NCBI RefSeq assembly: GCF_011044175.1
Contig: NZ_CP049057.1
Span: 1,751,501-1,815,500 of the forward strand
DNA length: 64,000 bases
DNA from: Rasiella rasia
GTDB taxonomy: Bacteria > Bacteroidota > Bacteroidia > Flavobacteriales > Flavobacteriaceae
Reading direction: 5' to 3'
Below are positions 59,216 to 62,605 of the stretch, in pieces; the stretch's first letter is position 1; each line of letters opens with the position of its first letter. Under the pieces are notes generated by a model. It ran no database searches and had not been told where the DNA came from. It saw only the letters and a list, made by a program, of their open reading frames with translations. Both the position numbers and the translations under genes were made by a program.

Positions 59216-60481
59216 TTACATTAATAACAAAGCCTCTTCAATACTATCGTAGATTTTCTGAAGTTGTTTTGCCGAAATAATATAGGGTGGTAGCACGTAA
59301 ATTGTATTCCCCAAAGGCCTTAAAACAATACCTTGAGAGATAAAGTGCTGATACAGTGTATCGCGCAATTTACCATAACGCTCCATTTCAACTTCTAGGT
59401 CGATTGCCAAAACCACTCCTATGCAACGCGCGGCTTTCACCTTGAGATGATTGCTAATTTTTTCTACAAAAACTTCATGCGACTTTGCAATACTGTTTCG
59501 TTGCGTTAAGATTTCAGAAGCGTTTAGGAGGGCCAATCCTTCGAGAGCAGCCGCACAGCCTAACGGGTGCGCACTAAAAGTGTGAGCGTGAAAAAAACCT
59601 TTGTGTATTTCGTCATTAAGAAATCTATTAAAAACAGCTTGACTACAACTTGTAATACTTAGCGGAAACATCCCTGCTGTGAGCGCTTTCCCCAAGCACA
59701 TTATATCGGGGTTTTGGGTAAGGTAGTCACTTGCAAAGTTTTTTCCTGTTTTACCAAAACCTGTCATAATTTCATCTGCAATGCATAAAATATCGGCTGT
59801 TTGGCATCTGGTAATTAACGCATCTAAACCTTTAGCTGAGTGAAATTTCATGCCAGCCGCGCCTTGCACCAGAGGTTCAAATATAAAAGCTGCACAAGAG
59901 TTTTCGGCAATCGCAATTTCTAACTTTTCAAGTACTTCTGCTAGATTATGTTTTTGTGGTGTAGGAATTCGTATTACGTTTAGCAAGAAATCTTCAAAGG
60001 GTGCGTTGTAAGAAGCGAGCCCAGAAGCACTCATAGCGCCAAAGGTATCACCATGAAAACCGTCTTCGAACGCAATTAGGGTATCGCGTTTCTCGCCAGC
60101 GTTGCTGTGATATTGTAACGCCATTTTAATGGCAGCTTCTACTGCTGTGGACCCATTATCATTAAAAAATATCTTTTGCTGGTTAGTAGGTAAAATACGA
60201 ATTAAGGATTCTGAAAGCGCTACCGCAGGTTTGTGTGTGAATCCGCTAAACATTACAAAATCGAGCGTATTCATTTGTTTTGTGATTGCCGCTTTAATTT
60301 TTGGATGACCATGACCATACATGCTCGTATACCACGAAGCGATTCCGTCTATGTACTCATTACCATCTTCATCCCAAATTGAGGCTCCTTCAGCCTTTAC
60401 AATGGCAATAAGTTCTTTCGCGGTTTTGTGTTGTGTAAGCGGGTGCCAAATGTGTTTTTTATCTCTTTCTGAAAGATTCAT
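59216..60481 (-). CDS. bioA: Adenosylmethionine-8-amino-7-oxononanoate aminotransferase
   Basis: PLP enzyme of biotin synthesis using SAM as amino donor. Motifs: DKKHIWHPLTQHKTAK at the N-terminus, DGIASWYTSMYGHGHP, ADEIMTGFGKTG (about residue 243, PLP Asp) and the PLP Lys in MCLGKALTAGMFPLS (about residue 271). The start is taken at MNLSERDKKHI (60481), because the alternative ATG at 60493 lies inside the hairpin repeat at 60488-60513. Confidence 0.95.
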   Translation of the reverse strand: MNLSERDKKHIWHPLTQHKTAKELIAIVKAEGASIWDEDGNEYIDGIASWYTSMYGHGHPKIKAAITKQMNTLDFVMFSGFTHKPAVALSESLIRILPTNQQKIFFNDNGSTAVEAAIKMALQYHSNAGEKRDTLIAFEDGFHGDTFGAMSASGLASYNAPFEDFLLNVIRIPTPQKHNLAEVLEKLEIAIAENSCAAFIFEPLVQGAAGMKFHSAKGLDALITRCQTADILCIADEIMTGFGKTGKNFASDYLTQNPDIMCLGKALTAGMFPLSITSCSQAVFNRFLNDEIHKGFFHAHTFSAHPLGCAAALEGLALLNASEILTQRNSIAKSHEVFVEKISNHLKVKAARCIGVVLAIDLEVEMERYGKLRDTLYQHFISQGIVLRPLGNTIYVLPPYIISAKQLQKIYDSIEEALLLM

Positions 60482-60487
60482 ATTATA

Positions 60488-60513
60488 CGTCATGCTGAAC
60501 TTGTTTCAGCATC
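60488..60513 (+). repeat. Left 26-bp hairpin repeat flanking the GIY-YIG pseudogene
   Basis: CGTC followed by stem ATGCTGAA (60492-60499), loop CTTGT and stem TTCAGCAT (60505-60512). It is the inverted counterpart of 60812-60837, matching it at 22 of 26 positions. It ends next to the bioA start. Confidence 0.85.
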
Positions 60514-60521
60514 TCATTAAG

Positions 60522-60803
60522 TTAGACTATTTTTAAGGTCTTAAGCGTCGGGGTTGTGGTTTTAATAAGATTCAATTTCCATTCTTTATGCCAATTTTAT
60601 AATTGTTTTTCACGAGAAGTAGCCTATTCAATTAAAGCAAATTCTTCAAAACAGATTATGTCCGCTAGGTTATATTTCTTCGTAAATTTTGACCCCACAC
60701 CATTAATATGGTCGACAACTCTTTTTTGTAAGTTAGACATAACTACAATGTAGAATATACTCCTATAGGCATTGGTCATTATGTAAACGTAACTTTTTCT
60801 CAT
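60522..60803 (-). pseudogene. Decayed GIY-YIG endonuclease gene
   Basis: The minus strand reads a GIY-YIG-family frame from ATG 60803 (MRKSYVYIMTN), with KRVVDHINGVGSKFTKKYNL and FEEFALIE, then TAG (60626-60624). After it the same frame continues with recognisable family sequence (TSREKQL, then TAA at 60599-60597, then NWHKEWKLNLIK) to TAA at 60524-60522. The second catalytic motif reads YIV instead of YIG. Two in-frame stops and the mutated Gly show loss of function; the catalytic Glu lies beyond the first stop. Full-length relatives are about 90 residues, as here. Confidence 0.85.
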
Positions 60804-60811
60804 TAGAATGG

Positions 60812-60837
60812 GACCCTGAAACAAGTTCAGGGTGACG
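60812..60837 (-). repeat. Right 26-bp hairpin repeat flanking the GIY-YIG pseudogene
   Basis: Plus strand GACCCTGAA, ACAAG, TTCAGGGTGACG: stem ACCCTGAA (60813-60820) with TTCAGGGT (60826-60833). In reverse it matches the left repeat except at two stem pairs that change together. It supplies the last codons and stop of bioD (Thr-Ser-Pro-stop). Confidence 0.85.
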
Positions 60838-61453
60838 TTAATTTTTTATTCAACTTTTCGGCATATTCTTTCACTACATTTTCATCAAAATACGGCTCTT
60901 CGTCTATTCGTCCTAAGATTTTTACTGTGGTCATTTTTTCGATAATTCGTTCTGTGGCTTCATTTTCTTCTCCACTAAAAATAATTCCGAAGATATTTAG
61001 CTTTCTTGCTTTGAGTGCCTCAATAGTGAGTAAAGTATGGTTAATGCTTCCTAAATAATGACGAGAAACAACAATCACTTTATCTGTTTCGTGAATCAAA
61101 TCTGCAATAGTCTCTGTGGCGTTCAACGGAACCAAAAGACCTCCAGCACCTTCAATAACTAGTTTATTTTGAGTACTCGGACGCTTTATTTTTTTTGCTG
61201 AAATTTTCACTTCTTCAATTTCGGCAGCCGCGTGGGGACTCATAGGGGTTTTCAGATTAAAAGCTGACGGATAAAACTGAGTCTTATCACAAGATACCAA
61301 TCGTTGTACTTTATGTGTGTCGGTATTGTCTAACTCACCTGCTTGAATGGGTTTCCAATAATCTGCTTTCAGAGCTTCAGTGACAATCGCCGAAACTACC
61401 GTTTTACCAACTTCGGTAGAGATTCCAGTAATAAAATAGGTGTGGTTCTTCAT
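60827..61453 (-). CDS. bioD: Dethiobiotin synthetase
   Basis: 208 residues; ATP-dependent ring closure of DAPA to dethiobiotin. The P-loop is ITGISTEVGKTVVSAI (residues 8-23), with the substrate Lys in DYWKPIQAGE (about residue 31) and VIEGAGGLLVPLN (about residue 98). The C-terminus (NKKLTSP) is encoded partly by the flanking hairpin repeat, so its last residues were probably replaced by insertion of the element. Confidence 0.95.
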   Translation of the reverse strand: MKNHTYFITGISTEVGKTVVSAIVTEALKADYWKPIQAGELDNTDTHKVQRLVSCDKTQFYPSAFNLKTPMSPHAAAEIEEVKISAKKIKRPSTQNKLVIEGAGGLLVPLNATETIADLIHETDKVIVVSRHYLGSINHTLLTIEALKARKLNIFGIIFSGEENEATERIIEKMTTVKILGRIDEEPYFDENVVKEYAEKLNKKLTSP

Positions 61454-61462
61454 GCAATTAAT

Positions 61463-62605
61463 TTAGCTTAAATGTATTTTCAAGGTTTGAAGAAGTGCAT
61501 ATATTTCATGTTCTGTATTAAAACTATGTACACAAATACGCAGTCGTTCTTTACCTATTGGAACCGTTGGTGAAAGAATGGGTTTTACATTAAAACCTTC
61601 ATTTTGTAATGCTTGGGAAATTTTCTTTACGTTTTCGTTCCCTGAAACAACGCAACTTTGAATCGCGGAATGGCTAGAAATAAAATGTTCTTCTAGCTTC
61701 GTATCAATAATCATATTTTGTAATATTGCAATATTACTATATAATTTATTTCTGTGTTTATCACAATTTGCAAGTTCTTGATAGGCCGCCCATATAGTTG
61801 CTAAAGTATGCGGAGGCAAAGCGGTGGTATAAATAAAGCTTCGCGCAAAATTAATTAAATAAGATATGAGCTGTTGACTTCCTAATATGGCAGCCCCATG
61901 AGATCCTAATCCCTTACCAAAGGTTACCAGTCGCGCAAATATTTGGTCTTCTAAGCCTAGCTGTTGTACTAACCCTTCTCCTTTTTCACCAAATACGCCA
62001 AGTGCATGTGCTTCATCTACTACCAAATGACATTGGTTTTCGTCGCAGAATTGCACAAGAGAAATTAAATCAGCTTGGTCACCATCCATAGAGAATATGG
62101 ATTCGGTGACTACATACACTTCAGTTCCTTTCGGAGTACTGTTGTGTTTTTCTTTTAGACCTTCTACATTATTGTGAGTAAACTTATATGCTTTGGCGTC
62201 GCTCAATTTTATACCATCACGTATAGACGCATGGCACAATTCGTCATAGAAAATAATATCCCCGCGCTGCGGGACGCTACTAAAAAACCCAACATTGGCA
62301 TCATACCCGCTATTAAAGATAAGCGCACTGTCTGTTTTATGAAATGTTGAAATGCAATTTTCGGTTACTGTATAAAGACTATGATTGCCAGATAAAAGTC
62401 TTGATCCGGTGGCACCATTAACAGTTAGATTGTGTTCTTCTAAAATTTCCGAAGCACGATTAAAGATAGTTTCCGAAGTACTAAAACCCAAATAATCATT
62501 AGAAGAAAAATCAACCAAATCATTAGGGGTACCCAAGGACCGTATCGATTTATTAACCGTACGTTCTTCTAATTTCTTTTGGAGTTTTTTGGGTAGATAA
62601 TCCAC
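61463..62605 (-). CDS. bioF: 8-amino-7-oxononanoate synthase
   Basis: PLP-dependent enzyme that condenses pimeloyl-CoA or -ACP with alanine. Motifs: DFSSNDYLGFS, GATGSRLLSGNHSLY (about residue 65), HLVVDEAHALGVFG (about residue 190) and the PLP Lys in VTFGKGLGSHGAAILGS (about residue 230). The start is GTG 62605 (MDYLPKKLQKK), as no ATG is in frame nearby. It is first gene of the biotin operon and divergent from the GNAT gene, with a TAAATTTG box just upstream. Confidence 0.95.
   Translation of the reverse strand: MDYLPKKLQKKLEERTVNKSIRSLGTPNDLVDFSSNDYLGFSTSETIFNRASEILEEHNLTVNGATGSRLLSGNHSLYTVTENCISTFHKTDSALIFNSGYDANVGFFSSVPQRGDIIFYDELCHASIRDGIKLSDAKAYKFTHNNVEGLKEKHNSTPKGTEVYVVTESIFSMDGDQADLISLVQFCDENQCHLVVDEAHALGVFGEKGEGLVQQLGLEDQIFARLVTFGKGLGSHGAAILGSQQLISYLINFARSFIYTTALPPHTLATIWAAYQELANCDKHRNKLYSNIAILQNMIIDTKLEEHFISSHSAIQSCVVSGNENVKKISQALQNEGFNVKPILSPTVPIGKERLRICVHSFNTEHEIYALLQTLKIHLS

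Follow-up and report, generated by a model that had tools for sequence, protein, structure and literature searches.

Between bioD and bioA in the biotin operon of Rasiella rasia lies what is probably the dead remnant of a REP/REPIN-like unit, composed of a GIY-YIG nuclease gene and two outward-facing hairpins that formed a matched pair with it. The unit was analysed within a stretch of 64,000 nucleotides of the genome (hereafter the window) and compared with related loci in other Flavobacteriaceae and in other phyla, where the presence of hairpin-gene-hairpin units suggests a selfish or mobile system of wide distribution. The evidence consists of hairpins on both sides of the genes, covarying stems, co-inheritance of hairpin and protein, one duplicated unit whose ends are exact, derivatives of the unit, sites with and without it and, in the window, the dead gene itself. 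For the window the result is modest, the unit being a fossil copy.

The unit in the biotin operon

A preliminary description of this DNA had reported two inverted 26-bp units, identical at 22 of 26 bases and differing by compensated TG/CA and CC/GG stem pairs, with the bioD stop in the right unit, an alternative bioA ATG in the left unit and, between them, a GIY-YIG frame with two in-frame stops and YIV in the place of YIG. All of this was confirmed from the sequence (Table 1), and the interval given for it, 60488-60837, corresponds to the 348-bp unit together with one flanking C and G (CGTC...GACG). The ends of the unit were placed by analogy with two copies in another genome (G337), the similarity of which stops at CGTC...GACG.

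Table 1. Features of the window unit and of the genes around it (positions in the window).
Feature	Position	Strand	Remarks
Whole unit (5' hairpin, GIY-YIG pseudogene, 3' hairpin)	60489..60836	(-)	348 bp, between bioD and bioA
5' (gene-upstream) unit, GTC-ACCCTGAA-CTTGT-TTCAGGGT-CCCA	60809..60836	(-)	bioD stop codon inside; stem and place shared with G251
3' (gene-downstream) unit, inverted, GTC-ATGCTGAA-CTTGT-TTCAGCAT-CTCA	60489..60516	(+)	alternative bioA ATG inside
GIY-YIG pseudogene	60519..60803	(-)	~94 codons, ATG at 60803; two in-frame stops; G251 and G005 have intact relatives at this place
In-frame stop TAG	60624..60626	(-)	
In-frame stop TAA	60597..60599	(-)	
YIG glycine codon to valine (YIV)	60744..60746	(-)	G invariant in the 18-row alignment of relatives
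bioD (dethiobiotin synthase)	60827..61453	(-)	last codons and stop (60829-60827) in the 5' unit
bioA	59216..60493	(-)	longest frame begins in the 3' unit, alternative ATG 60493-60491
bioF	61463..62605	(-)	upstream operon gene

At their full length of 28 nt, the 3' unit reads GTCATGCTGAACTTGTTTCAGCATCTCA and the 5' unit GTCACCCTGAACTTGTTTCAGGGTCCCA, each on its own strand, and both present a GTC, an 8-bp stem and the 5-nt loop CTTGT. Their DNA folding energies are -6.7 and -7.1 kcal/mol, values reached by 0/200 and 3/200 shuffles, respectively. The core CTGAACTTGTTTCAG is found at 60495-60509 (+) and 60816-60830 (-), against a chance expectation of 0.03 matches with at most one mismatch in the window, and the stem of the 3' unit recurs in many relatives located in bio operons.

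In the whole 3.39-Mb genome, TGAACTYGTTTCA has two copies only, both in the window unit, and a search with the full hairpin pattern (at most two mismatches) returned two poor extra matches versus one for a control pattern; beyond the two hairpins of the unit, no further hairpin of the window type was found in this genome. Rarity of the repeat, named in the preliminary description as a point that would count against its reading, is therefore true of this genome, in which the gene is dead, but not of the family, since the core is present in 63 of 120 Flavobacteriaceae genomes.

The gene order, assigned with NCBIfam, is bioF-bioD-(unit)-bioA-(ketoacyl-synthase-like gene)-bioB. Judging from the starts in relatives, the old start of bioA was likely the ATG at 60481-60479, and all that the surviving hairpins now contribute is the stop of bioD and a portion of the spacer between bioD and bioA. 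As regards a plasmid origin, the window region gave no blastn match among plasmids.

Two other GIY-YIG loci were observed on the genome. A second gene of R. rasia (L012; C1:235665-237794) is intact and lies within an array in which GTCACYTCKAGTGA is matched 11 times (at most one mismatch), on strands that alternate; this repeat also begins with GTCA but belongs to a different family. The other locus (L011; C1:1516500-1518800) holds three identical 84-aa GIY-YIG frames in a 350-bp head-to-tail array, at which ARAGORN detected no tRNA.

The GIY-YIG pseudogene

In the translated fragment 60797-60624, 53 of the 57 residues align with the Pfam GIY-YIG family (PF01541; E 1.4e-5), and two relatives of 97 aa also match PF01541 as stand-alone GIY-YIG domains of ~90 aa. 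When the 18-row profile was compared with the PDB, the sole matches at E <=0.01 were 1zg2 and 1ywl (E 1e-10 and 4.2e-7). No NCBIfam model exceeded its cut-off. Two other identities were considered and rejected: for a GIY-YIG homing endonuclease, the NCBIfam model grpIintron_endo, whose cut-off is 56.05, gave five relatives scores of 16.1 to 26.5 bits, and for a defence gene, the PADLOC matches were partial and weak (best E 6.9e-5). The death of the gene is specific to the window's lineage, as the same-genus genome G251 keeps an intact copy at the bioD-bioA junction.

Relatives in Flavobacteriaceae

The search of 349 Flavobacteriaceae genomes with the intact protein of G005 (E <= 1e-28) yielded 45 genes in 42 genomes, of which 40 are free of in-frame stops and five, the window's included, carry them. 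Under a strict rule (GTC, A and an exact 5-bp stem), a hairpin was present on the 5' side of 34 genes, on the 3' side of 33 and on both sides of 26. In several of the genes that fail the rule, a hairpin is visible but altered, and the four copies at hisC-hisB have related hairpins without the usual feet. The identical rule applied to a second flavobacterial set gave both hairpins in 18 of 30 loci.

The biotin operon holds 20 of the 45 copies (15 at bioD-bioA, four just upstream of bioD and one after bioA). Seven occupy the trpB-trpA slot and four the hisC-hisB slot, both slots being identified by NCBIfam on one representative each and the other copies assigned via shared ORF clusters. Two copies lie in a slot between hisD and an aminotransferase gene that clusters with that hisC, and single ones were found at trpC-trpF, beside a hisF-like gene and beside thiC. 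Biosynthetic neighbours thus total 36 of 45, the other nine having none by eye in flanks of 0.8-1.5 kb; they represent at least seven distinct slots and are not independent insertions. In a different GIY-YIG clade, one unit was seen between hemB and an aminotransferase gene, taken for hemL. Some loci are more complex: in G251 (L157) the loop of the 3' hairpin carries a long insertion and more units precede bioA, and arrays of many similar segments surround several GIY-YIG genes in G220 (L289; steps of ~143 bp) and G174 (L291).

The occupancy of the bioD-bioA junction was followed in 40 relatives, among which bioD was detected in 26 and bioA within reach behind it in 13. Three of these 13 have the unit (the window's genome G000, G251 and G005), one has a gap of 1.1 kb (G002), and the other junctions, which were inspected and include those of the same-genus G073 and G249, are without it. 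Junctions without the unit were also found in G017, which belongs to the genus of the occupied G246, in G145 and in G205. In other genera, this junction (L161 in G019 and L298 in G226) carries GCGnAGGC-like hairpins, which are of another type, as though the site were preferred.

Of the 20 rows from the biotin operon, 14 group in a single branch of the protein tree (SH-aLRT 96), and the other six, with that of the window, fall outside it and are poorly placed. The site labels require 14 changes on the tree, whereas shuffled labels require 31.1 on average and were never as low (0/200). The distances of the GIY-YIG genes agree with those of bioD (r 0.58 for 19 rows, 1/5000 permutations; r 0.53 for 17 rows, 12/5000). 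The gene is under purifying selection, with a median pN/pS of 0.24 over 153 pairs excluding the window copy and of 0.30 over the 18 pairs with it, and among the 20 copies of the biotin operon, the window's carries two stops and that of G145 is apparently frame-shifted near its end. Since the site labels track the tree, the distances agree with bioD and selection is purifying, most of the flavobacterial copies seem to have been in place for a long time and not to have moved recently.

Such residence would also be expected of a domesticated gene, i.e. a stable functional part of the biotin, trp or his operon for which the hairpins are cis-acting sites, without mobility. The 20 of 45 relatives in the biotin operon and the seven at trpB-trpA, the 14-row branch, the agreement with bioD and a pN/pS of about 0.24 can all be read in this sense. 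However, the copies use differing slots within one operon, G337 has two of them, decayed or gene-less pairs exist, G073 and G249 lack the unit at bioD-bioA, six of the 20 biotin rows are outside the main branch, and the same layout is met in many phyla; we thus consider domestication unlikely and retain a REP/REPIN-like unit as the preferred reading.

Unit boundaries, copying and derivatives

The two copies of the unit in G337, one on each side of bioD, are 91% identical over 349 bp. Their flanks are unrelated, and the similarity runs from CGTC to GACG; as it ends at the hairpin feet, the unit is bounded by these feet. Between the two copies, dN is 0.023 and dS 0.212. The pair is the only clear recent copying event found, and a truncated derivative adjoins the G337 unit. 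At the two copies, judged without an exact empty site, no target-site duplication is visible, whereas one would be expected of a MITE of a DDE transposon. Unit lengths computed in relatives are mostly ~340-360 bp, longer values including extra repeats or a misplaced end.

The bioD-bioA junctions of G113 and G279 and the trpB-trpA junction of G049 hold pairs of hairpins around a lost or decayed gene; REPIN-like inverted pairs with a short spacer are found at these three junctions and also at bioD-bioA in G226. Recent dispersal within genomes was considered and rejected: 2-5 GIY-YIG copies were compared in each of 16 other genomes, and in the eight of these where they align over 100 bp they are 71-80% alike, none exceeding 80%. 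A 94% copy in G174 was set aside as evidence of dispersal, its ends not being diagnostic within the repeat array where it sits. The data do not support the window copy as a working element of the mobile system envisaged in the preliminary description: its gene is dead, and among the flavobacterial copies, mostly long-resident in appearance, the G337 pair is the one clear recent event.

Hairpins around GIY-YIG genes in other phyla

An idealised GIY-YIG query was run against bacterial and archaeal species genomes; 559 relatives were confirmed, and the best 80 of them, drawn from many phyla, were examined. Of these loci, 79 were usable, one being excluded for masked sequence. In the 79 loci (best 80 of 559), an outward GTCA-hairpin is present upstream of 62 genes, downstream of 65 and on both sides of 54, whereas 476 control positions at least 1.2 kb off in the same loci gave 12, 9 and 0; the rule was framed after viewing these flanks, and the controls were scored by the identical rule. 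Shuffles under this rule gave 2%, 1.9% and, for both sides, 0.0%. Hairpins in the opposite orientation were found at 39 and 35 of the same 79 loci, and on both sides of 20, as would be expected if pairs and arrays are common. The link of the repeats with GIY-YIG genes of ~90 codons in inverted pairs, which had been proposed from the window, is thus observed in 54 of these 79 loci as well as in 26 of the 45 flavobacterial ones, which excludes a lack of linkage, one of the points named there as refuting.

A relative in Neisseria gonorrhoeae (tblastn, 48.9% identity to the relative L048, E 4e-24) is flanked on each side by GTCATTCCCGC..GCGGGAATC repeats, and one relative each in Rhizobium and Aeromonas has its own version. 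A second Rhizobium locus, L184, one of four plasmid-collection loci that were read closely, has no GTCA hairpin beside its gene by this rule and was dropped from later counts. In the plasmid collection, 34 records match the L048 protein, two of them being 2.17-Mb N. gonorrhoeae records filed as plasmids, and no match to this protein was found in phages. At five loci (L046, L053, L085, L112 and L113), read-through of the hairpins yields recurrent peptides (HSERSEES and LNLFQG, for example) ahead of the GIY-YIG frames, from which spurious protein starts might arise.

Covarying stems and matching of hairpin and protein

Copies for the covariation analysis were picked by the inner core TGAACTYGTTTCA only, and pairing was counted outside this core. 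In the 64 distinct flanking copies (of 65), the variable positions pair (Watson-Crick or G-T) in 61 and 62 cases; Watson-Crick pairs account for 58 and 62, versus averages of 24.2 and 28.5 in shuffles, which never exceeded 34 and 39. The 57 distinct copies found elsewhere, out of 60 in nine genomes, show pairing in 47 and 53 cases; 37 and 53 of these are Watson-Crick pairs, where shuffling gave 14.0 and 43.3 on average and at most 24 and 49, it being noted that the shuffles ignore relatedness among copies and that some of these 60 copies are without GTC feet and some may adjoin GIY-YIG genes. The G of the 5' foot is at its column in all 64 flanking copies. Selection on the structure, claimed previously from the two window hairpins, is borne out by this covariation in other copies, and a lack of compensation, likewise named as refuting, is excluded. 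Eight loci of G044 (L239-L241, L245, L251, L252, L254 and L255) have the 13-mer core in another repeated context, TGTGCTGAACTTGTTTCAGTATTAAAACGA-like and without a GTC foot, which is perhaps a different repeat.

Hairpin sequence and protein sequence were also compared. In Flavobacteriaceae, the distances between hairpin arms and between proteins are correlated with r 0.65 for 5' arms (55 loci) and 0.58 (57 loci), and in the best 80 of 559 loci with r 0.47 for 5' arms (62) and 0.36 (66), in each case with 0/1000 permutations. The 30-locus flavobacterial set alone gave 0.49 (21) and 0.30 (24), the latter barely over the highest permutation. On the wide protein tree of 158 rows (118 typed, 22 'other', five mixed and 13 without a hairpin found), the five hairpin types require 11 changes over the 118 typed rows, and all label groups together 44 changes versus a shuffled mean of 96.5 (0/200). 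The median number of core copies is 8.5 in the 16 genomes with a window-type gene versus 0 in the 104 without (p = 4e-8), a comparison which includes flanking copies and assumes that its 120 genomes are all among the 349 searched; 18 of the 104 hold at least four cores. An asymmetry between the arms was noted in the window clade (same in 2 of 26 versus 7.1 expected), but as it is absent in the other two sets, it is not a general rule. Taken together, the flanking of 54 of 79 loci (best 80 of 559) against 0 of 476 control positions, the covariation and the co-inheritance support the REP-like layout with a GIY-YIG nuclease instead of a tyrosine transposase, as first suggested from the window.

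Covariation is as compatible with RNA as with DNA, and the units lie between co-directional operon genes, often right after a stop codon, so that the hairpins could act as terminators, attenuators or mRNA stabilisers with the GIY-YIG gene as a passenger. We regard such a role as quite improbable, given that the hairpins accompany GIY-YIG genes across many phyla, that their sequence follows that of the protein, and that the conserved GTC foot lies outside the stem, which is unexpected for a terminator.

The anatomy of the units, REP/REPIN-like, might also be that of ordinary REPs mobilised by an unseen RAYT or IS200/605-type (Y1) transposase, the GIY-YIG gene then being cargo. REP-like repeats are common in bacteria, and to our knowledge many of them have no known engine. 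Y1_Tnp matches were obtained in seven of 13 tested genomes, G337 and G117 included, but not in the window's genome (G000), G251, G085, G049, G070 and G230; since they are missing from these six, the units are not in general driven by a Y1 transposase. Moreover, G085, G049 and G070 contain 16, 13 and 28 cores without a Y1_Tnp match, and the hairpin type follows the GIY-YIG phylogeny, so that this explanation appears hardly credible to us; the choice of loci by GIY-YIG is in itself no evidence for or against it.

Proposed mechanism and significance

Under the preferred reading, that of a nuclease gene with its own hairpins, each built of GTC, stem, loop, stem and TC, the GIY-YIG protein would recognise and cut the hairpins, and this cutting would drive the copying. 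Most likely, the nuclease would recognise the extruded hairpin in single-stranded DNA, either on the lagging strand or in incoming transforming DNA, and cut near the hairpin foot; repair or annealing at related hairpins would occasionally copy the unit or leave pairs of hairpins. Recognition of the hairpin as single-stranded DNA is probably the reason why hairpin and nuclease are matched. The unit and its deletion derivatives would spread rarely, stay long in intergenic slots, which in this clade would be mostly in biosynthetic operons, and be inherited with the host, the gene having died in the window lineage by two stops and the change of the YIG glycine.

A broader proposal, which we hold tentatively and with some doubt, is that small GIY-YIG nucleases mobilise phylum-wide REP/REPIN-like elements with covarying GTC-foot hairpin ends, as a hydrolytic counterpart of the single-strand transposition of RAYT/REP and IS200/605, with a hairpin-recognition code in the nuclease and a preference for bio, trp and his operons. 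If a single nuclease family does drive the GTC-foot hairpins of bacteria ranging from Bacteroidota and Cyanobacteriota to Neisseria, it becomes directly testable where several long-known repeats came from, and the matched pairs of hairpin and protein would constitute a natural catalogue of single-strand DNA specificities.

Comparison with known systems

Chenal et al. are said to have described in 2025, in Nat Commun, a family of GIY-YIG nucleases named Ssn, which act site-specifically on single strands, together with the repeat that they target in Neisseria, NTS. There, Ssn reportedly cleaves single strands at this repeat and influences natural transformation. The N. gonorrhoeae gene matched by L048 is presumably Ssn, and the GTCATTCCC...GGGAATC repeats around it would then be NTS. 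Like Ssn, the window clade has a small stand-alone GIY-YIG protein with genome repeats as cognate sites, here the flanking hairpins; unlike Ssn, the window gene is dead and its hairpin core differs. The class is therefore probably already described at the level of nuclease and target repeat, which makes the word 'undescribed' in the preliminary description doubtful, whereas the residence in biosynthetic operons, the duplication that marks the unit ends and the REPIN-like derivatives were found in this analysis.

Neisserial GTCATTCCC(N)GGGAATC hairpins, which we take to be dRS3 repeats, have the same logic of foot and stem as those of the window clade and differ in the sequence of stem and loop. 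One such repeat is printed inside a construct in a study of the N. gonorrhoeae pilus, in a passage that makes no link to a GIY-YIG gene (PMC7593972). Prokaryotic GIY-YIG proteins of the UPF0213/Slx1-like group (1zg2, 1ywl) are alike in matching the 18-row profile; 208 non-eukaryotic Slx1-like members have been listed, the prokaryotic ones being termed a minimal GIY-YIG domain, in a report whose passages on these proteins mention no association with repeats and whose text does not contain 'palindrom' (PMC1564403). A Moraxella pangenome table has RayT and a GIY-YIG gene as separate entries (PMC9465073). In the open-licence literature, no title among the matches listed joins GIY-YIG genes with REP-like repeats, and unit ends, REPIN-like derivatives, biosynthetic-operon residence and hairpin-protein co-inheritance were not found there.

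REP and REPIN elements are short hairpins with a conserved GTAG foot, arranged in inverted pairs and associated with a RAYT, a tyrosine (HUH) transposase. The units studied here share with them the footed hairpins, the inverted pairs, the gene-less copies, the flanked gene and the long vertical inheritance, but they differ in their enzyme, which is a GIY-YIG protein and not a tyrosine (HUH) transposase, and in their foot, which is GTC(A) and not GTAG.
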